Origin: Aridibaculum aurantiacum
GTDB lineage: Bacteria > Bacteroidota > Bacteroidia > Chitinophagales > Chitinophagaceae
Length of the DNA: 64,000 nucleotides
Reading direction: 5' to 3'
NCBI RefSeq assembly: GCF_017355875.1
Contig: NZ_JAFEWC010000004.1
Span: 262,989 to 326,988, forward strand
The notes under the pieces: model-generated
Database searches by the model: none
What the model was told of the DNA's origin: nothing
What the model saw: the letters and a program-made list of their open reading frames with translations, nothing else
Part shown: positions 25,729 through 34,790 of the stretch, piece by piece
Numbering within the stretch: the stretch's first letter is position 1
Layout of the letters: each line of letters starts with the position of its first letter
Translations under genes and position numbers: made by a program

Positions 25729-27072
25729 CTACTGCAGCAATTCATCTATCGCTTTTTGGTAATTATTAAATTGAAATGATGTGATCGCCTGCTTCATATT
25801 AGCCGCAATCTGTTCATTACACAAGTTACCAATGCTGCCTTCGTGCGTATGTTCCAGCTGGGTCGAATAAGTAAATTCTCCACCTTCTATTGCCAGTCCT
25901 ACTTGTTTGTATGCATCCCTGAAAGGCACACCCTGCATCACCAGTTTATTTACTTCTTCTACGCTGAATAAATACTGATATTTTTTATCCTCCAACAGGT
26001 TTTGCTTCACCTCCATATTACTGATCATCAAACCTGCCATTTCTATACAATTGCGAAGTGTAGTGAACGCAGGAAACAAATGCTCTTTCAGCAATTGCAG
26101 ATCGCGATGATAACCGGATGGAAGATTGGTTGTCATCATCATGATCTCGTTTGGTAAAGCCTTCAGCCTGTTGCAATGACTTCTTATCAGTTCAAACACA
26201 TCAGGGTTCTTTTTGTGCGGCATGATAGATGAGCCGGTAGTAAGTTCAGCAGGGAAAGAGATAAGATCAAAGTTCTGGTTGAGGTACAGGCAAGCATCCA
26301 TAGATAAACGTGCAATGGTATCGGCAACATTTGCCAAAGCACTTGCTACAATGCGTTCTGCTTTTCCTCTTCCCATTTGCGCATACACTACATTGTAGTT
26401 GAGGTCTGCAAAACCTAGTAATTGAGTGGTAAATGTTCTGTTGATAGGAAACGAAGAACCATAACCAGCAGCAGAGCCAAGTGGATTTTTATTCACCACA
26501 TCATATGCTGCTTTGATTGTGATGATATCATCAACCAAACCTTCTGCATAAGCGCCAAGCCATAAACCAAATGATGATGGCATTGCAAGTTGCAGGTGCG
26601 TGTAACCTGGTAATAGATGTGCTTTCAGTTCTTCGCTTCTTGTATTCAGCAGGTGAAAAAATTCTTCAATAGCGACAACAGTTTTTTCTATTTCAGCGCG
26701 TAAAAAAAGTTTTATATCAACCAGCACCTGGTCGTTACGGCTGCGTGCAGAATGTATCTTTTTCCCTACATCACCCAGCTCTTGCGTAAGCTGGTATTCC
26801 ACCTGCGAATGAACATCTTCAATACCTTCCTGTATAGCAAAAGAACCAGCCAACACCTGCTCATAAATTTTCCTTAGTTCTGCTACTAACTGATCCGCCT
26901 CTTCATTGGTAAGTAATCCAACTGTAGCAAGCATTTTCGCATGTGCAATATTTCCCAGTACATCGTATGGTGCCAGTTGCAGGTCAAAGTCACGATCGTT
27001 GCCTACAGTAAAACGTTCTACTTGTTTGGCAACATCAGAAGCACCGGCAGTATCTTTTTGCCACAGTTTCAT
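25729..27072 (-). CDS. argH: Argininosuccinate lyase
   Basis: 447 residues. It splits argininosuccinate to arginine and fumarate, the last step of arginine synthesis. Family landmarks are present: HSQVEYQLTQELGDVGKKIHSARSRNDQ, GYTHLQLAMPSSFGLWLGAYAE and the fumarase/aspartase-superfamily signature GSSIMPHKKNPD, whose serine is the catalytic acid/base loop. It is the last gene of the arginine operon, 47 bp after argE, and no clear terminator fits in the 9-bp gap before the convergent J-domain gene. Confidence 0.97.
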   Translation of the reverse strand: MKLWQKDTAGASDVAKQVERFTVGNDRDFDLQLAPYDVLGNIAHAKMLATVGLLTNEEADQLVAELRKIYEQVLAGSFAIQEGIEDVHSQVEYQLTQELGDVGKKIHSARSRNDQVLVDIKLFLRAEIEKTVVAIEEFFHLLNTRSEELKAHLLPGYTHLQLAMPSSFGLWLGAYAEGLVDDIITIKAAYDVVNKNPLGSAAGYGSSFPINRTFTTQLLGFADLNYNVVYAQMGRGKAERIVASALANVADTIARLSMDACLYLNQNFDLISFPAELTTGSSIMPHKKNPDVFELIRSHCNRLKALPNEIMMMTTNLPSGYHRDLQLLKEHLFPAFTTLRNCIEMAGLMISNMEVKQNLLEDKKYQYLFSVEEVNKLVMQGVPFRDAYKQVGLAIEGGEFTYSTQLEHTHEGSIGNLCNEQIAANMKQAITSFQFNNYQKAIDELLQ

Positions 27073-27119
27073 ATTCGTTCAGGTTGGTTTTTGTAAATGA
27101 GATGAAGTATGCTTAATCA

Positions 27120-28208
27120 CTACAGCACCTTCTCCAGCATTTTTATATATCCTTCTATACCGTCTTTTATTTCGTGCAGGTAAATGAATTCATCAGCTGT
27201 ATGACTACGTGCACTATCACCTGGTCCACACTTAAGCGAAGGAAAAGGCATAAGCGCTTTATCGCTGCTGGTAGGTGAGCCATAACAAGTTTTACCTAAT
27301 GCTATTCCTGCCTGTACTATAGGATGTGTAACATCAATAGCAGTAGAACGCAGGCGCATACTTCTCGGCCTGATCTCGCTTTGTACATGCTGGCTGATAA
27401 TGCCAAAAACTTCTTCGTGTGTATACGCATCTGTTACCCGCACATCCACTACATACCTGCACTGCGATGGAACTATATTGTGTGCCTTGTTCTCTGTTTC
27501 TATCACCGTCACATTCATCTTCACTGGTCCCATCCATTCACTAATTTTTTCAAACTTGTAACTGCTGAACCATTCAATATCTTTCATTGCTTTATACAGT
27601 GCATTGTCTCCTTCTTCTCTTGCTGCATGACCAGCACGGCCATGTGCAATGCAGTCAAGCACCATCAAGCCTTTTTCTGCAACTGCAAGGTTCATCAAAG
27701 TAGGTTCGCCTACTATGGCAAATGCAGGTTCATTATCACCCATTGTTGCTTTGAAATCTTTATTCCCTAAAAGTGCTTCAATACCATTATAACCACTTAT
27801 TTCCTCTTCGGCTGTAGCTGCTAGCAACAGGTTGTGAGAAAGGTTCGGGTGATCATAAAAATGAAGGAAAGCAGCGATTAAACTAACCAGGCAACCACCT
27901 GCATCGTTGCTGCCTAATCCATACAGCTTTTCATTTTCTACAGCAGGTTCAAAGGGATCCTTCGTGTATTGTTTATTTGGATGCACCGTATCGTGGTGAG
28001 AGTTGAGCAGTATAGTAGGCTTTGCAGGATCAAAATATTTATTGACAGCCCATACATTGTTCAGGTTGCGGTTTGAAGCAATCCCATGCTGCTCAAGAAA
28101 TGATGCAATAGCGTCAGCAGTAGCTTCTTCATATTTAGAATAAGAAGGAATACTGATGAGTTGCTTCAGCAAGAGAACAGCTTGTTCATATAGTTGTTCA
28201 ATGGTCAT
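27120..28208 (-). CDS. argE: M20-family N-acyl-ornithine/citrulline deacylase
   Basis: 362 residues with the M20 dinuclear zinc-peptidase pattern: the first ligand in LLNSHHDTVHP, the bridging aspartate in GSNDAGGCL, the catalytic Glu-Glu pair in TAEEEISGYNG, and a lid domain at about 180-290. In pathways that use an N-acylornithine carbamoyltransferase, the deacylase acts on the citrulline derivative rather than on ornithine. Since argF' is in the same operon, N-acylcitrulline is the likely substrate, probably the succinyl form (inference). The start codon overlaps the argB stop as TAATG, so translation is probably coupled. Confidence 0.9.
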   Translation of the reverse strand: MTIEQLYEQAVLLLKQLISIPSYSKYEEATADAIASFLEQHGIASNRNLNNVWAVNKYFDPAKPTILLNSHHDTVHPNKQYTKDPFEPAVENEKLYGLGSNDAGGCLVSLIAAFLHFYDHPNLSHNLLLAATAEEEISGYNGIEALLGNKDFKATMGDNEPAFAIVGEPTLMNLAVAEKGLMVLDCIAHGRAGHAAREEGDNALYKAMKDIEWFSSYKFEKISEWMGPVKMNVTVIETENKAHNIVPSQCRYVVDVRVTDAYTHEEVFGIISQHVQSEIRPRSMRLRSTAIDVTHPIVQAGIALGKTCYGSPTSSDKALMPFPSLKCGPGDSARSHTADEFIYLHEIKDGIEGYIKMLEKVL

Positions 28209-29050
28209 TATGCAGTTATCAAAGTGCCTGTTGTATTATCAGAAGTATTTGCCACAAGATCATTCGCATCTCCTATCAACACTTCCTGTACACCTGCGTC
28301 TATGGCTGCAAATGCATTTTCAAGTTTTGGAAGAATGCCTTCAAAAAGTTTCTGCTCATCCAGCAATTGTTGATACTTCTGCTTGTTGATGTGCGTGATA
28401 ACAGAGGTCTCATCATCTACATTTTCAAGCACACCTTTCTTTTCAAAACAATACAGCAATCGCACATCATATTCTTTAGAAAGTGCCACAGCAAGTGATG
28501 AAGCTATGGTATCAGCATTAGTGTTGAGTATATGTCCCTCACCATCGTGCGTAAGTGGAGCGAACACAGGAGTTAGCCCTATATCTACAAACAGTGTTAC
28601 CCATTCAAAGTGAACATCGTCGGCTGTTACATCGCCTACCCATCCAAAATCAACTTCTTTTACCGGTCGCTTTTTCGCAGGAATAATATTGGCATCAGCA
28701 CCTGTAAGACCGATAGCATTTACACCTTTGGCTTGCAGTGCAGCAGTGATCTTTTTGTTCACCAATCCTCCATACACCATGGTTACAAGATCAATGGTTG
28801 CATCATCTGTTATCCTTCTGCCATCAACGTAGTTGGGCTGAATATCTAATTGCTCACCAATCTTGGTTGCTATTTTACCACCACCATGAATGAGAATACT
28901 AGCCGCATGTACACCAGCAGAATGTTGCGACTTTAGAACCGATGCATATAGTTCAAGGAAATGATCTAGCCTGGCTGCATCATCTATGATGTTGCCACCA
29001 ATTTTTATGATGAATAATTTTCTTCTTGCTGCTTCAGTTTGCTTTTCCAT
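28208..29050 (-). CDS. argB: Acylglutamate kinase (ArgB family)
   Basis: 280 residues with the amino-acid-kinase fold: KLFIIKIGGNIID at the N-terminus, LIHGGGKIATKIGEQL for ATP and substrate binding, GLTGADANII, and LNTNADTIASSLAVALS. It phosphorylates the gamma-carboxylate of N-acetyl- or N-succinylglutamate. The N-terminal helix that allows hexamer formation and arginine feedback inhibition in some homologues is absent or short here, so feedback may be weak and the leader attenuator may carry the control (inference). It lies 42 bp after argF' and shares 1 nt with argE. Confidence 0.94.
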   Translation of the reverse strand: MEKQTEAARRKLFIIKIGGNIIDDAARLDHFLELYASVLKSQHSAGVHAASILIHGGGKIATKIGEQLDIQPNYVDGRRITDDATIDLVTMVYGGLVNKKITAALQAKGVNAIGLTGADANIIPAKKRPVKEVDFGWVGDVTADDVHFEWVTLFVDIGLTPVFAPLTHDGEGHILNTNADTIASSLAVALSKEYDVRLLYCFEKKGVLENVDDETSVITHINKQKYQQLLDEQKLFEGILPKLENAFAAIDAGVQEVLIGDANDLVANTSDNTTGTLITA

Positions 29051-29092
29051 ATTTCTGCTGTGGGCTAATGTTGATAGTGTAAGTGGTAAAAA

Positions 29093-30076
29093 TTACCTGC
29101 TTAATATTTCGCTTATTACAGCCTGTGCTGCCCATACACGGTTGCTTGCCTGCTGCGTTACAATGCTGTTGCTGCTATCCAATACTTCATCGCTCAGCTC
29201 TACATTTCGGCGAACAGGAAGGCAATGCATTACACGTGCATTATTGGTAAGTTGTAAATGTTCTTCAGTAAGCATCCAGCGCGGATCATTCTCATAAATC
29301 TTTCCATAATCGTTGAAGGTGCTCCAATTCTTTACGTATACAAAATCAGCTCCTTCAAGCGCTTTCTTTTGATCGTGCATGATTGTAGCTCCCTTGGTAA
29401 ACTGTTCATCCAGTTCGTAATCTTCAGGATGCGCAATCACAAAGTCTACCTTACCCCACGCTGTCATCCATTGCGAAAATGAATTGGCAACACATTGCGG
29501 CAATGGCTTTACATGCGGCGCCCATGTTAGTACCACTTTAGGCCGGTTAGCAATAGATGCTTCAGCCGCTCCGTGCATTTGCTCTTGTATAGTGATAACA
29601 TCAGTAAGTGACTGCAATGGATGAAGAGTGGCACTTTCTAAACTTATAACAGGTACACCTGCATACTTTATAAATTGGCTGATGAACATTTCGCTGTAGT
29701 CATCTTCCCTGTTTTTAAGTGAAGGAAAAGTACGTATAGCCAGTATGTCAAAATAATTCCCAAGTATGGGTGCAGCGTCTTTTACATGCTCAACAGTACT
29801 GCCACTCATTATGGCGCCTTCTTCAAATTCAAGTGCCCAACCTTCTTTATCTACATTAAAAACGATCGGTTCCATGCCCAAGTTTTGCGCCGCTACCTGT
29901 GTGCTTAATCGTGTTCGCAAACTTGGATTTAAAAACAACAAGCCAATGCGTTTGTTAGCACCCAGCTGCTTATCGGCAAAAGGGTTGGCTTTGTAATGAA
30001 GTGCCTTTTGTACCAGCGCTTCTATATCTGTTACATCGTGTACAGAAAGAAAGTTGTTCTTAATAATGTTTGACAT
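29093..30076 (-). CDS. argF': N-acylornithine carbamoyltransferase (probably succinyl type)
   Basis: 327 residues. It is a transcarbamylase with the carbamoyl-phosphate motif SLRTRLST (residues 52-59) and the C-terminal MHCLPVRRN, which marks the Bacteroidota/Xanthomonas acylornithine group rather than true ornithine carbamoyltransferases. The determinant region reads MSGSTVEHVKDA. Where Xanthomonas acetylornithine enzymes have Glu (…EEH) and, from memory, Bacteroides fragilis succinylornithine enzyme has Pro (…PEH), this protein has V95. Published mutagenesis of this site found that small or hydrophobic residues favour succinylornithine, so the succinyl substrate is predicted. It makes N-acylcitrulline from carbamoyl phosphate. 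The gene lies 26 bp after argD. Confidence 0.92.
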   Translation of the reverse strand: MSNIIKNNFLSVHDVTDIEALVQKALHYKANPFADKQLGANKRIGLLFLNPSLRTRLSTQVAAQNLGMEPIVFNVDKEGWALEFEEGAIMSGSTVEHVKDAAPILGNYFDILAIRTFPSLKNREDDYSEMFISQFIKYAGVPVISLESATLHPLQSLTDVITIQEQMHGAAEASIANRPKVVLTWAPHVKPLPQCVANSFSQWMTAWGKVDFVIAHPEDYELDEQFTKGATIMHDQKKALEGADFVYVKNWSTFNDYGKIYENDPRWMLTEEHLQLTNNARVMHCLPVRRNVELSDEVLDSSNSIVTQQASNRVWAAQAVISEILSR

Positions 30077-30102
30077 GTAGTGGTAGTAAAGAAGCTTTTG
30101 AT

Positions 30103-31266
30103 TTAGGAAATGTGTGCTGCGGGTGTGGGTTGAAGTGAAGCAATGGCTGTTTTTAATCCTTCTAGAAACTGGTCAGCTTCATTTCTTGTAAGTGCAAGTG
30201 AAGGCAATAATCTTATGACGTTTGGCTTTGCTTCACCCGTAAATATATGTTGTTGTTGAAGGAGTATTTTCTTCAGATCTTTTATCTCTTCTGGTACATC
30301 AAATCCAATCATCAAACCTTTACCTCTTACATTTTGTATGGCTGGTATTTGCCTAAGTTGATCCAGCAGGTAATCACCGGTTTCTATTGCATTTGAAATC
30401 AAATCTTCCTGTGCTATCACTTCTAGTACAGCCAGCGCAGCCGCACATGCTAAATGGTTTCCACCAAAGGTGGTACCGAGCAGAAAGTGCTTTGGTTGTA
30501 TGTGCGGGGCTATTAGAATACCTCCAATCGGAAATCCATTGCCCATGCCCTTTGCCATGCTATATACATCAGCCTGCACACCGGCAAGATCGTGTGCAAA
30601 AAAAGAACCGCTACGACCAAAACCATCCTGCACACTATCGGCTATAAATACTGCATTGTATTGATCGCACAACCTTCTTATTGCTTGTAAGAATTCATCT
30701 GTTGCTACCACTATTCCTCCTACACCCTGGATGGCTTCCAGTATAACAGCACATACTTCTTGTCCATGCTCAGCAAAGCATTGCTCTAGTGCAGTTACAT
30801 CATTGTAAGGAAGAAAAATAATGTTGTCGGTTTCATTGATAGGAGCCACTATGTTCTTGTTGTCGGTAGCGGCTACAGCAAGCGATGTACGACCATGAAA
30901 TGCTTTGGTAAAAGCAATGGCTTTTCTCTTGCTAGTATAAAAAGATGCAAGCTTCAGTGCATTTTCATTTGCTTCTGCACCACTATTCACCAGGAACAAC
31001 TGGTAGTCATTTTTACCGGAAACTTCAGCCAGCTTATCAGCCAGTTGTTGTTGTATGGGAATTTTTATGGAATTGGAATAAAAAGCAATTTTATGTAGCT
31101 GCTCCTCTATCCGCTTCACCCAGTGTGGATGCGTGTGGCCGATGCTGATCACTGCATGACCACCATACATGTCAAGATACTGTTCATTATTTTCATCCCA
31201 GACAAAAGAGCCTTGCGCTTTTGTGATGGTGATGTTGTTGAGCGGGTATACGTCGAAGAGAGTCAT
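30103..31266 (-). CDS. argD: Acylornithine aminotransferase
   Basis: 387 residues, class III PLP aminotransferase. Signatures include YLDMYGGHAVISIGHTHP, LVNSGAEANENALKLA, the glycine-rich AFHGRTSLAVAAT, and ADSVQDGFGRSG followed by the lysine in VYSMAKGMGNGFPIGG. It converts N-acylglutamate semialdehyde to N-acylornithine with glutamate as donor. A 181-bp spacer separates it from argC, much wider than elsewhere in the operon. That spacer holds repeat-like sequence and could carry an internal promoter. Confidence 0.95.
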   Translation of the reverse strand: MTLFDVYPLNNITITKAQGSFVWDENNEQYLDMYGGHAVISIGHTHPHWVKRIEEQLHKIAFYSNSIKIPIQQQLADKLAEVSGKNDYQLFLVNSGAEANENALKLASFYTSKRKAIAFTKAFHGRTSLAVAATDNKNIVAPINETDNIIFLPYNDVTALEQCFAEHGQEVCAVILEAIQGVGGIVVATDEFLQAIRRLCDQYNAVFIADSVQDGFGRSGSFFAHDLAGVQADVYSMAKGMGNGFPIGGILIAPHIQPKHFLLGTTFGGNHLACAAALAVLEVIAQEDLISNAIETGDYLLDQLRQIPAIQNVRGKGLMIGFDVPEEIKDLKKILLQQQHIFTGEAKPNVIRLLPSLALTRNEADQFLEGLKTAIASLQPTPAAHIS

Positions 31267-31281
31267 TGGTGGAATTGTATA

Positions 31282-31307
31282 AGTTGTGAGTTGTAGGTTG
31301 ATAGTTG
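31282..31307. repeat. Low-complexity AACT-type repeat in the argC-argD spacer
   Basis: On the minus strand the sequence runs CAACTATCAACCTACAACTC and on to ACAACT, very similar to a block upstream of actB (51163-51182). Confidence 0.4.
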
Positions 31308-31447
31308 TAAGTAGGAATCAATGGCAGTCTTTATTTATAGGTGATATAAGCATTGCTTTTATCTCATTTTATTATTGGTTAAGCAGGTCTTATAATTATG
31401 CATCTCTACTATAGACTCATAACTTGTTACCTACTACTTCCAACTTG

Positions 31448-32434
31448 CTAAAAGAAATTCGCCTTTAATCGCAATCCTGCTTTTTCATCTAATCCAAACA
31501 TCAGGTTCATGTTTTGGACAGCCTGTCCTGAAGCTCCTTTTAATAAATTATCTATGATAGAATGCACAACGAGTTTTGTTCCTACTTTCTCTAATTGAAT
31601 AAAGCATTTGTTGGTGTTTACCACTTGCTTTAAAAAAATAGGCTCATTGCTGACAAACGTGAATGGATGCTCTGCATAATATTCTTCAAACAGTTCATGC
31701 ACCTCTTGCTGAGTAAGAGGGCAGTTGAGTTGTGAGCTGATAAAGATGCCTCTTGTAAAATCACCTCTCCATGGAACAAAGCTGATGTCAACATCTTGCT
31801 TTACCTGCAGCTGGTGAAGTGACTGGCTGATCTCTCCAAGATGCTGGTGCGAAAGCGTTTTATAAGCCTGTACATTATTTGCTCTCCAGCTAAAATGGCT
31901 GGTAGCAGATAATCCTTGTCCTGCACCAGTGGAGCCGGTTATGCCTGTAGTGTATACCTCTGTTACCAATCCTGCTTTAGCCAAAGGCAACAACCCAAGT
32001 TGTATAGCTGTAGCAAAACAACCCGGATTGGCTACATTGGTTGCTGATATTATTTCTTGTTTATTCAATTCAGGAAGGCCATATACAAAACTCCTTTCTT
32101 CATTGAATGCTGCGTTTGCACTAAGCCTGAAATCATTTGAAAGATCAATGATCCTGGCACTTTTAAATGCATCAATATTTTCCTGCAAAAACTTCTTCGC
32201 ATCACCATGACCCAGGCAAAGAAATACTACATCTACATTATCAGTAAAGGTGGAAGAAAATGCAACAGATGTTTCACCAACCAGGTCGCCATGCACAGCA
32301 TGTACAGCTTTGCCTGCATTGCTTTTACTATGTACATAAGTAAGTTCAGCATTAGGATGATTGATCAATAGCCTGATCAATTCCCCTCCGGTATAGCCGG
32401 CACCACCTATGATACCTACCTTAATCTTTTGCAT
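31448..32434 (-). CDS. argC: N-acyl-gamma-glutamyl-phosphate reductase
   Basis: 328 residues. The N-terminal Rossmann motif GIIGGAGYTGGELIRLL and the active-site cysteine in ATNVANPGCFATA identify it. It reduces the acyl-phosphate made by ArgB to the semialdehyde using NADPH. The gene overlaps the end of argG by 14 bp, so the two are translationally linked. Its 3' side is followed by the wide spacer before argD. Confidence 0.96.
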   Translation of the reverse strand: MQKIKVGIIGGAGYTGGELIRLLINHPNAELTYVHSKSNAGKAVHAVHGDLVGETSVAFSSTFTDNVDVVFLCLGHGDAKKFLQENIDAFKSARIIDLSNDFRLSANAAFNEERSFVYGLPELNKQEIISATNVANPGCFATAIQLGLLPLAKAGLVTEVYTTGITGSTGAGQGLSATSHFSWRANNVQAYKTLSHQHLGEISQSLHQLQVKQDVDISFVPWRGDFTRGIFISSQLNCPLTQQEVHELFEEYYAEHPFTFVSNEPIFLKQVVNTNKCFIQLEKVGTKLVVHSIIDNLLKGASGQAVQNMNLMFGLDEKAGLRLKANFF

Positions 32435-33632
32435 CTAAACTATCTTTTACCTGGTAATAAATCGATGTCTGGTTGCCAAAGATCTTGCTGAAGCCTCTTA
32501 CGTCTTCACCTGTCCAGCCATTGTTCATTTCACCATAGCTACCAAACTGGCTGTTCATCAGGTCATAGTCAGATTCTATTCCAAGCACCACAAAGCGATA
32601 AGGCATCAAGCGAACAAATACATCGCCCGTTACATGTAATTGTGCGTGCTCAAAAAATGCTTCTATATCTCTCATTACCGGGTCAAGTATCTGGCCTTCG
32701 TGCAACCAGTTGCCATAGAACAAAGCAAGTTGATCTTTCCAGTTCAATTGCCATTTGGTAAGCACATGCTTCTCTAACGTGTGGTGAGCTTTGATGATTA
32801 TCATAGGTGCAGCAGCTTCAAAACCTACACGACCTTTGATGCCTATTATAGTATCACCCACGTGTACATCTCTGCCTATACCATAAGGTGCTGCTATACT
32901 TTGCAAATATTGTATAGCATGAACAGGTTGTTCAAATTCCTGGTCATCCACACCTTTCAGCTCACCTTTTACAAAGTGTAGTTTAATATCTTGTTCCGTG
33001 CTGGCAGTTACCTGCGTAGGCCATGCTTCTTCAGGCAACATGCCATTGGATTTCAGCGTTTCTTTTCCACCAACACTTGTGCCCCACAAGCCTTTGTTGA
33101 TAGAGTACATCGACTTCTCGAAGTTCATTTCCACATTACGGCTCTTCAGGTATTCTATCTCTTCTTCACGGCTTAGTTTCAGGTCGCGGATAGGCGTGAT
33201 GATCTTAATGCCGGGGATCATAATGTTGAAGATCATATCGAAGCGTACCTGGTCGTTGCCGGCACCAGTGCTTCCGTGTGCTACGGCATCTGCCTGCATC
33301 GTTTCTACATGATCTGAAATATGCAGTGCCTGTATCAGTCGCTCTGCACTTACACTCAGTGGGTAAGTATTATTTTTTAAAACATTGCCAAATACCAGGT
33401 ACTTGATAATGGTATTGTAATAGCTTTCTACCGCATCAACAGCAGTATGTGTTTTTACGCCCAGGTCATAGGCATGCGTTTCTATTTGCTTCAGTTCATC
33501 TTTGGTGAAGCCACCCGTATTTACAATGATGCTATGCACATCATAGCCAGTTTCGGTTAAGTACTTCACGCAAAATGAAGTATCTAAACCACCACTAAAA
33601 CCAAGGACAACAGAAGGTGATGGAGTTGACAT
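32421..33632 (-). CDS. argG: Argininosuccinate synthase
   Basis: 403 residues. The PP-loop pyrophosphatase motif SGGLDTS is at residues 14-20 (VVLGFSGGLDTSF), and the substrate loop AHGSTGAGNDQVRFD lies near residue 120. It joins citrulline to aspartate using ATP. Together with ArgH it finishes arginine synthesis after removal of the acyl group by ArgE. It lies 18 bp after the GNAT gene and overlaps argC by 14 bp. Confidence 0.97.
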   Translation of the reverse strand: MSTPSPSVVLGFSGGLDTSFCVKYLTETGYDVHSIIVNTGGFTKDELKQIETHAYDLGVKTHTAVDAVESYYNTIIKYLVFGNVLKNNTYPLSVSAERLIQALHISDHVETMQADAVAHGSTGAGNDQVRFDMIFNIMIPGIKIITPIRDLKLSREEEIEYLKSRNVEMNFEKSMYSINKGLWGTSVGGKETLKSNGMLPEEAWPTQVTASTEQDIKLHFVKGELKGVDDQEFEQPVHAIQYLQSIAAPYGIGRDVHVGDTIIGIKGRVGFEAAAPMIIIKAHHTLEKHVLTKWQLNWKDQLALFYGNWLHEGQILDPVMRDIEAFFEHAQLHVTGDVFVRLMPYRFVVLGIESDYDLMNSQFGSYGEMNNGWTGEDVRGFSKIFGNQTSIYYQVKDSLDAKD

Positions 33633-33650: not shown

Positions 33651-34364
33651 TTAGTGTAAAAGGCCAAGCAAAAAGTTGAACAAAGATATTTTTCCTGGCT
33701 TACGATTGCCAGTAGGATCTTTTTTGCGCAAAGCCTTCAATAGGCGGCTCTGCTTTATTTTCATGAAACGCTCATACAGCTTAGAGTGCTTCTTAAAATC
33801 AGCTGCGGTTTCTTCTGGCTCATAATGATCTTTAGGATCGTACAACATACCGGTGCACAGGCAGTTCTTCCTGTCTTTGCTCATCAGTATGTCGTAGTTC
33901 ACACAAGCTTTACAGCCTTTCCAGAATTCCTCGTCGTCTGTTAGCTCAGAATAGGTAACGGGTTCATAGCCTAACTCGCTGTTGATCTTCATAACAGCAA
34001 GCCCGGTAGTAAGACCGAATATTTTTGCCTCAGGATATTTTTCGCGTGAAAGATCGAAGATGCGTTTTTTGATGCTTTTAGCTACGCCGCTCTTCCTGAA
34101 AGCAGGACTAACAATTAAACCACTGTTAGCCACAAACTTCTCATGGCCCCACGCCTCTATATAGCAGAAGCCAACCCAGGTACCGTCTGCGGTATGTGCT
34201 ATCACGGCTTTGCCCTCAGTCATTTTCATGGCTACATAATCCGGGCTGCGTTTTGCAATACCAGTACCACGTGCTTTTGCCGAAGCTTCCATTTCGTCTG
34301 TAATGGTACTTGCGTAATGCACATCGCCACTATTGGCTACCCTTATTATAATTTCCTGCTCCAC
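33651..34364 (-). CDS. GNAT acyltransferase, probable acylglutamate synthase of the arginine operon
   Basis: 237 residues. The GTG at 34364 is the first possible start (an in-frame TAA precedes it) and is needed to keep the first GNAT strand (EIIIRVANSGDV). The acyl-CoA-binding loop is in VSPAFRKSGVAKSIKKRIF, with the conserved Arg/Gly pattern near residue 95. A C-terminal extension has four cysteines (KGCKACVNY, NCLCTG). As first gene of the operon it is the natural candidate for the missing first step, transfer of an acyl group to glutamate; a similar GNAT gene precedes argG in other Bacteroidota. Whether it uses acetyl- or succinyl-CoA cannot be read from the sequence. Confidence 0.8.
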   Translation of the reverse strand: MEQEIIIRVANSGDVHYASTITDEMEASAKARGTGIAKRSPDYVAMKMTEGKAVIAHTADGTWVGFCYIEAWGHEKFVANSGLIVSPAFRKSGVAKSIKKRIFDLSREKYPEAKIFGLTTGLAVMKINSELGYEPVTYSELTDDEEFWKGCKACVNYDILMSKDRKNCLCTGMLYDPKDHYEPEETAADFKKHSKLYERFMKIKQSRLLKALRKKDPTGNRKPGKISLFNFLLGLLH

Positions 34365-34381
34365 TTATGTCTAGATATAAT

Positions 34382-34423
34382 AATTAGAAAGAAAGGTTAG
34401 AAAGCAGGTGCAATAAACCTGCC
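34382..34423 (-). terminator. Candidate attenuator hairpin of the arginine operon
   Basis: On the minus strand GCAGGT (34422-34417), a 7-nt loop, ACCTGC (34409-34404), then TTTCTAACCTTTCTTTC. It lies 28 bp after the leader peptide stop and about 40 bp before the GNAT start. An alternative pairing AAACC:GGTTT would disrupt the stem and could act as antiterminator (inference). Confidence 0.5.
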
Positions 34424-34449
34424 AATGGGAATGATGGGTTTTCCCTCTA

Positions 34450-34497
34450 TCAGATACGTGGTCGTCGGATCAGGTAAAAGAAATTTTCGTTAGCCAT
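34450..34497 (-). CDS. Arginine leader peptide, 15 residues
   Basis: The frame reads MANENFFYLIRRPRI and stops with TGA immediately followed by TAG. Three of its last five codons are arginine (CGA CGA CCA CGT), including two rare-looking CGA codons, directly upstream of an arginine biosynthesis operon and of a terminator-like hairpin. This is the classic layout of ribosome-mediated transcription attenuation: when charged tRNA-Arg is scarce the ribosome should stall at the CGA codons and alter folding of the downstream RNA. The sequence facts are direct; the mechanism is inference. Confidence 0.65.
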   Translation of the reverse strand: MANENFFYLIRRPRI

Positions 34498-34732
34498 TGT
34501 AGTTAAACGGCCAGCCAGCGTAGGGTGACTGATGATAGCGTGATATGTAAGATTGTGGTTCAACGTATCAATGAAAATTACCTGTTGTAGTAATGGGTGT
34601 AAAAGTAAGTGGTTGTAAAAACAATGAAGTTTAAATTTTTTTAAAATTCTGTTGATGAGTGTCTTTCATATATAGAAGTAGGAGATCTGCATCGAGGTAA
34701 AGGGATGTAGAACGTTCGGATATCTTTTGCTA

Positions 34733-34763
34733 CAAAAGCAAACAGCAGGCTTTTAACCTGCTG
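34733..34763 (-). terminator. Terminator after the outer-membrane barrel gene
   Basis: 7-bp stem CAGCAGG / CCTGCTG with a 7-nt loop, followed on the minus strand by TTTGCTTTTG. A T-tract is also present on the plus side, so it may work in both directions. Confidence 0.65.
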
Positions 34764-34790
34764 CTACTTTTTTGCTTATTGGTTATATGG

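Follow-up and report, generated by a model that had tools for sequence, protein, structure and literature searches.

The region upstream of the arginine operon of Aridibaculum aurantiacum is best explained as a ribosome-sensed arginine attenuator, a reading that we consider probable, in which a 37-codon leader peptide ending in Arg-Arg-Pro-Arg-Ile would sense arginine through two rare CGA codons. On the comparative data, the arginine leader is real and conserved, both in the window, by which we mean the whole stretch of 64,000 nucleotides of DNA analysed, and in many of its relatives. When arginyl-tRNA is short, the ribosome would stall at the first CGA with its front edge just before the stop-codon region, and AUCUG would pair with the downstream CAGGU as an antiterminator wrapped around a small hairpin, which would block the terminator hairpin and let RNA polymerase continue into the operon. 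With arginine in good supply, the ribosome would reach the stop codon and cover AUCUGA, CAGGU would be freed to pair with ACCUG, and the terminator with its U-rich tail would end transcription at about 34387-34403. Counted from the first nucleotide of the codon in the P site, the footprint of a ribosome reaches about 15 nt. The logic would thus be that of classical attenuation, because a ribosome stalled with its A site on the first CGA extends just to AUC, leaving AUCUG mostly free, whereas a ribosome at the stop codon covers AUCUG. The stalling, the direction of control and the action on termination rather than on translation start are what we infer.

The first gene of the operon encodes a GNAT acetyltransferase (33651..34364, minus strand, GTG start; PF00583 with 20.9 bits against a cut-off of 20.7) and is followed on the same strand by argG, argC, argD, a carbamoyltransferase of the acetylornithine type, argB, an argE-like deacylase and argH (25729..33632), with argG next after the GNAT gene. 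About 32-45 nt 5′ of the leader start lies a promoter-like TTACTTTTACACCC (34595..34608, minus strand), which resembles what we take to be the Bacteroidota -7 box. Stretches like TACTTTTAC or TTTCTTTGC were seen by eye at a comparable place in many relatives, and their promoter role is putative.

The 3′ part of the leader runs on the minus strand from an ATG at 34497 to ATC CGA CGA CCA CGT ATC TGA, ending at 34450; this frame end, the GCAGGT/ACCTGC hairpin with its T-rich tail and the GTG start of the first gene are all present as the initial annotation had described them. Of the 15-codon frame that it proposed, the Arg-coded IRRPRI end is conserved and the start is wrong, as an in-frame TTG at 34563 extends the frame beyond the ATG to 37 codons (LNHNLTYHAIISHPTLAGRLTTMANENFFYLIRRPRI; 34450..34563, minus strand; stop UGA, then UAG). 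TTG is the longest start in all 40 distinct RRPRI-type leaders from the sampled family loci, 38 of which are 36-42 codons in length. Compared with seven other genus members, codons 2-23, upstream of the ATG, gave a dN/dS of 0.32 and the last 15 codons one of 0.30, so the start at the ATG was dropped; the conserved frame is, on this evidence, the one of 37 codons from TTG, and it is by these ratios under purifying selection within the genus. Family-wide, the part upstream of the ATG gave a dN/dS of 0.34 in 17 leaders of length 38 and 0.65 in 13 of length 37, and values of 0.5-0.8 were obtained in the VRR and PRRGx leader groups defined below. The predicted frame is therefore a short upstream frame that holds codons for the regulated amino acid and bears the mark of coding selection, as in known leader attenuators. 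A search of the own genome with the leader tail returned this one place and no second copy. A mid-leader motif, THxxLSAxHPSLxG(V), at codons 6-20 recurs in L002-L010, L014, L015, L044 and other loci, and CAYCC...GGGUG in its region possibly pairs inside the leader frame.

Relatives of the GNAT gene were collected from 59 genomes near the own one (matches in 37 of them; 30 loci), from the best 80 of 428 matches in the genome collection and from 40 further family regions, the named loci belonging to Chitinophagaceae such as Sediminibacterium, Ferruginibacter, Filimonas, Lacibacter, Flavisolibacter and others. The count took in 148 family loci for which 200 nt or more of upstream sequence was available, and L034 and L090 were left out as too short. 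In 144 of the 148 (the best 80 of 428 included), a leader tail rich in Arg stands before the GNAT-arg operon. These 144 represent 139 distinct 200-nt upstream sequences and fall into three kinds, namely ..RRPRI (44, the type of the window), ..PRRG[CF] and variants (77) and ..VRR (23). Four loci fall outside these kinds: L025, which is masked, and L030, L071 and L127, which carry other Arg-bearing tails.

An independent rule was also applied, by which a frame has at least three Arg codons, two of them in the last eight, at least 15 codons and a stop 55-190 nt upstream. It was passed by 92/107, 40/40 and 24/40 of the regions in three sets, against 5.8%, 5.5% and 10.5% of their dinucleotide shuffles, by 19/107, 6/40 and 9/40 of the reverse complements, and by 5/43 of the other mechanical window ORF starts. 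A native control from ATG ORFs of L031-L110 (75/273) was contaminated by antisense frames and leader regions and was not used as a control. The third set of 40 was drawn from outside the family, within its order, class and phylum, and comprises 32 regions with argG directly downstream and eight without argG nearby. Of these 32, 21 pass (8% shuffled), or 24 when the limit is two Arg codons (12% shuffled), and eight fail the rule (L177, L178, L182, L183, L185, L186, L201 and L202); without argG nearby, three of eight pass (21-22% shuffled). Tails outside the family include ..TRRPHRRIRI, ..RRPYMPRA, ..APTRRRP and ..PIPRRR.

The repressor ArgR (PF01316) was found in none of 29 genomes, the own one and 28 relatives, by a search that detected its control in Bacteroides ihuae, among others. 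In a phylum sample of 296 genomes, ArgR occurs in 110, the GNAT gene in 124 (at E values of 1e-30 or below) and both in four. The Fisher p of about 1e-28 is uncorrected for relatedness, and a more diverged GNAT gene may exist in ArgR lineages. Two of the four genomes with both have weak matches only (G300 and G321), and in G502 ArgR lies directly upstream of GNAT, in a region (L185) without an Arg leader. In cells that lack ArgR, the leader probably serves to gauge the internal arginine supply. The arginine leader peptide that the initial annotation had placed before the arginine operon thus held up, with tails in 144 of the 148 family loci, CGA at fixed places and no ArgR found. An Arg leader peptide ahead of the operon is well supported by comparative evidence, because the frame is conserved, the Arg and Pro codons change synonymously, rare CGA codons are fixed and ArgR was not found.

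Downstream of the leader, on the minus strand, the proposed 5′ arm of the antiterminator, AUCUG (34451..34455), is formed by the final Ile codon together with the stop codon and is present in all ten genus members. It is followed by an inner hairpin GGGAA-(AACCCAUCA)-UUCCC (34427..34445), a terminator-like hairpin GCAGGU-UUAUUGC-ACCUGC (34404..34422), which begins 27 nt after the stop, and an interrupted U-rich tail UUUCUAACCUUUCUUUC (34387..34403) that fails the strict tail test. CAGGU (34421-34417), the 5′ arm of the terminator-like hairpin, would be common to both folds. The AUCUG:CAGGU pairing is possible in eight of the ten genus members with invariant arms, as are both alternative folds; L003 lacks both terminator arms and L006 lacks CAGGU. 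In all eight, the computed stability of the terminator fold exceeds that of the antiterminator by 4.3 to 10.5 kcal/mol (-16.0 against -10.5 in the window), and because of this the switch would have to be kinetic. The antiterminator suggested earlier, AAACC:GGTTT, was rejected: between the stop and the GNAT start, GGTTT occurs only in the window (L001) and L007 and AAACC only in the window, so that of the ten genus members the window alone has both.

The inner stems lie at an equivalent place in the genus and differ in sequence (GGGAA/UUCCC, GGAAAU/AUUUCC, CCGGA/UCCGG, UCUUAC/GUAAGA, CCUAU/AUAGG and GAAACAU/AUGUUUC). Over nine genus sequences the inner hairpin exceeds shuffles with a Stouffer z of -5.3, and it is no more stable than shuffles in the window (z -0.04), L002 (-0.23) and L005 (+1.0), and little more so in L010 (-1.08). 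The best hairpin in the vicinity of the stop has a mean energy of -7.3 kcal/mol over 39 RRPRI leaders, against -4.2 in shuffles. In the VRR group the hairpin near the stop, which sits at the edge of a ribosome on the stop codon, does not go beyond shuffles (-5.6 against -5.3), and CATAGT...ACTATG recurs there by eye. In nine VRR loci (L027, L028, L103, L106, L108, L146, L149, L156 and L162), a different recurrent hairpin, (C)ATAGTRTYCC...GGAACTAT(G), was observed, beginning 14-15 nt past the first base of the stop codon.

A strict terminator rule, which called for a stem of 5 or more, a short loop, 5 or more T out of 8 and an energy no higher than -3, was passed by 36 of the 144 leaders, comprising 9/44 RRPRI, 21/77 PRRGx and 6/23 VRR, against 5.6%, 4.2% and 4.1% of shuffles, respectively. 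By these counts termination signals are enriched, not universal, and the idea of a simple terminator common to all leaders was discarded. In the genus, L004 and L010 are the two of ten that pass. The hairpin of the window taken by itself is weak and the case rests on the genus, because the window fails the strict U-tract test and its inner hairpin has a z of -0.04. The terminator-like repeat recurs in nine of the ten genus members with a G-C, G-U or A-U outer pair, and a U run of at least three follows it in most members and is absent in L007. The attenuator of the initial annotation therefore stands in part: the reading is supported by the repeat in nine of ten genus members and by the conserved competing arm, whereas the strict terminator is present in two of ten, the window fails, and L007 lacks the U run. 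Its expectation of a conserved Arg-rich frame with a compensated terminator stem in relatives fared similarly, as the frame and, with a varying outer pair, the stem repeat are conserved, and strict terminators are a minority.

This minority of canonical terminators fits a second possibility, namely that leader translation controls the translation start of GNAT, or mRNA decay, rather than transcription, with hairpins near the GNAT start opening or closing the initiation region. In its favour, 36 of 39 distinct rows of the relatives treated below have the end of the UGGUN segment (hairpin H2) 25-34 nt upstream of the aligned GNAT start, and the speF leader and the rbfL leader of Staphylococcus aureus act on RNA decay or translation, according to the accessible parts of their reports. 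The short U run after the repeat in most of the window's genus speaks against it, as does the hairpin followed by CUUUUU before the gene in L032, L035-L038, L043 and comparable PRRGx loci, and we regard control at translation start as unlikely, though a serious contender.

The codon use of the leaders, readable directly from the aligned frames, bears on the sensor of the proposed attenuator. The two CGA codons of the window (34462..34467, minus strand), the proposed sensor codons, are CGA in 40/40 and 39/40 of the distinct RRPRI-type leaders. The third Arg codon, CGT in the window (34456..34458), encodes Arg in 40/40 by six codons (CGT 20, AGA 9, CGC 5, AGG 2, CGG 2 and CGA 2). CGA also takes position -4 in 67 of 74 PRRGx leaders, 37 of the 40 Arg codons at their position -6, and position -2 in 23 of 23 VRR leaders. 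It is the rarest Arg codon, with 34 of 803 Arg codons (4.2%) in 35 mechanical window ORFs, and contributes 171 of 3246 in 323 GNAT and argG match regions of L001-L165. The CGACG string could also be kept for an RNA reason, but the preference for CGA at position -6 of the PRRGx leaders speaks against this. The preference is claimed for the family only, because other Arg codons (CGG, CGT and CGC, for example) are also used outside it.

Of 35 tRNA places found in the own genome, 30 were examined, and among these the Arg anticodons were ACG, CCG, CCT and TCT, with no TCG. As far as seen, only an inosine-type tRNA-Arg would therefore read CGA. The five places left out are 83-87 nt long, a size like that of Leu, Ser and Tyr tRNAs, which makes an overlooked Arg tRNA unlikely, and one of them is the Tyr tRNA seen in L208. 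As reported in the accessible portion of a study of the Salmonella his leader, inosine-type tRNA reads CGA poorly, and strong stalling occurs at Arg-Arg pairs that contain CGA, AGA or AGG (PMC4046918). In the speF leader, to judge from the part of the paper at hand, frequent Arg codons give the same arginine response as CGA CGA (PMC6386406), so the sensing need not depend on how rare the codon is.

It is improbable, in our estimate, that the nascent peptide itself, with its Arg- and Pro-rich C-terminus, arrests the ribosome on free arginine or a metabolite, the CGA codons being secondary. Precedents for nascent-peptide arrest are TnaC, SpeFL and the fungal arginine attenuator peptide. Residues and not codons alone are indeed kept in the RRPRI leaders, with Pro in 39/40 by four codons and Ile next to the Arg codons in 37/40, but the tails diverge between lineages (RRPRI, PRRGC, WVRR, PTRRRP and PIPRRR) with Arg in all of them, and a pure peptide signal would not predict the CGA preference.

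The strongest RNA evidence for the attenuator comes from relatives, because the window lacks the consensus of the element found in them. This element, H1, is a near-invariant hairpin over the leader stop codon in 76 of 108 upstream regions (from the sampled loci, the best 80 of 428 included), with the consensus C-UGA-YAGG, an internal loop [AC]CGA/C, a short inner stem and CCURUCAG-UGRA. In PRRGx leaders the stop stands in fixed register with it, UGA in 74/74 followed by UAG, CAG or UGG. In alignment A1, made of 33 of 61 distinct segments, 99.4% of cells pair and three pairs change on both sides, with a covariation score of 0.187 against 0.088 in shuffles (0/500), and measures that count pairs or pair types show no excess over shuffles (179/500 and 475/500). 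Among 244 family genomes, the H1 covariance model has matches in 75; in 73 of these there is a single match and in two a second, weak one elsewhere in the genome (G165:C44:9846-9901 and G228:C16:76682-76739). It also matches 6 of 296 genomes of the phylum sample, comprising five family members and one weak match; in the own genome it gave none. Of 60 fetched H1 places, 59 adjoin the GNAT gene. No gathering-level match to a known RNA family in Rfam 15 (T-box, riboswitch or other) was obtained in the window, nor in 17 related loci except for one tRNA, and the single sub-threshold match in window 34300-34700 lies on the opposite strand. H1 is thus a new RNA element, absent from Rfam 15, in many other Chitinophagaceae.

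Many other Chitinophagaceae would follow the same plan with other parts, the stop codon lying in the 5′ arm of H1 and the H1 loop pairing with a segment near the gene or with hairpin H2. The complementarity of the H1 loop to the segment just before the GNAT gene was first noticed by eye. For 45 non-redundant pairs of 91, the mean duplex energy was -6.0 when matched and -5.0 when crossed (3/20000 permutations; run score 1/20000). From 60 further regions fetched, eight without the H1 pattern, one without GNAT and 13 redundant ones were dropped, and the remaining 38 pairs gave -5.47 against -4.57 (2/20000; run score 3/20000); these permutations ignore the relatedness of the genomes. A single pair was then examined in loci that carry [CU]UGGUN downstream, in most cases as GGAYUGGUN; these make up 51 rows, 39 of them distinct, and L065 and L260 lack the full GGAYUGGU. 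In 25 of the 39 rows, against 12.8 expected (0/20000 shuffles), the H1-loop base that precedes ACC is paired with the base that follows GGU; the other 14 are unpaired, one of which (L020) is out of register with the pattern and would pair. At the adjacent flanking pair there is no such excess (35 against 34.2). Many single genomes, such as L042, L046, L052, L061, L262 and L290, lack a good loop partner. The H1 loop complements the 3′ arm of the terminator in L031 and some PRRGx loci with a clear terminator, and the loop of H2 in the GGAYUGGU group. H1 and its loop-H2 covariation can be seen in the alignments, and we infer that terminator arm and H2 loop play one role as the downstream partner of H1, as well as the sign of its effect.

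The near-invariant internal loop [AC]CGA/C and the UGRA tail would also suit H1 as a ligand- or protein-binding RNA with the leader frame secondary, but the Arg leader persists without H1, as in the window's genus, the leader stop keeps a fixed register with H1 and no Rfam match was obtained, which leaves this explanation quite improbable. A chance frame beside a chance hairpin is scarcely credible, for about 6% of shuffled family regions and 19/107 reverse complements hold such a frame but the frame conservation, the codons, the dN/dS values and the other families contradict it.

It is an evenly balanced proposition that, across much of Bacteroidota outside the ArgR lineages, a leader peptide with a poorly read CGA sensor (in Chitinophagaceae at least) controls arginine synthesis, coupled in Chitinophagaceae to a stop-codon hairpin whose loop kisses the loop of a second hairpin and so relays the ribosome position. 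If true, this would explain arginine control in a large bacterial group without ArgR, provide a natural case of an inosine-read CGA codon as a sensor, and make H1 with its loop pairing an added way to pass ribosome position to gene expression. The leader and H1 parts are small and easy to mutate.

The proposed attenuator shares with the his and trp leader attenuators of enterobacteria a short frame with codons for the product, the stall-versus-stop logic, competing arms (here predicted) and a terminator (here putative) before the first gene; it differs in responding to arginine, in its few rare Arg codons (CGA) among the last codons, in its TTG start, in its occurrence in Bacteroidota and in having the arm over the stop codon as the proposed switch. 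ArgR shares the physiological role but is a DNA-binding protein, and it was not found in 29 genomes, the own one included. A comparative study of attenuation by Lopatovskaya and colleagues reportedly may contain related predictions. This 2010 study is cited in the accessible text of PMC4833913. The speF leader orf34/SpeFL of gamma-proteobacteria likewise has two consecutive Arg codons, a stall at which allows, and a stop-codon pause blocks, a hairpin just after the stop, but it precedes an ornithine decarboxylase gene under Rho and RNase G control instead of an arginine biosynthesis operon, so far as the available part of the paper tells (PMC6386406). Four leader peptides gave no Pfam match at E 1, and hence none to the SpeFL family (DUF2618, PF10940). 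In rbfL of S. aureus, a rare Arg codon in the leader frame also senses arginine, but rbfL blocks the ribosome site of the next gene and represses a biofilm regulator, as the available sections state (PMC13009471). For Flavobacterium psychrophilum, clues to leader-peptide attenuation before amino-acid operons were given with no amino acid named in the portion available; phylum and general mechanism are in common with the arg leader, and argG is absent from the main text (PMC9723704). No description of an arginine leader in Bacteroidota was found in the titles and abstract beginnings of the literature searched, which within those limits agrees with the remark of the initial annotation that a standard description was not known to it.

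A few further observations concern the flanks of the leader. A long conserved AAACTGTTATACTTTTAC, which exceeds the length that a -7 box requires, was seen by eye 5′ of the leader start in L019, L031, L032, L035-L039, L042-L045, L126 and L147. Over the GNAT start, a TAGACA-17-TATAAT (window 34345-34373, minus strand) agrees at 11/12 positions with the sigma-70 consensus, and this match may be chance because Bacteroidota presumably use another consensus. A conserved TTTGGCACGAT follows the terminator-like hairpin in six of the ten genus members (L002-L006 and L009, at an equivalent place in L003) and not in the window; it resembles what we take to be the sigma-54 -24 box, and a clear -12 box is absent. 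A terminator-like hairpin on both strands at window 34741-34765 probably ends the upstream gene and separates it from the arg leader.
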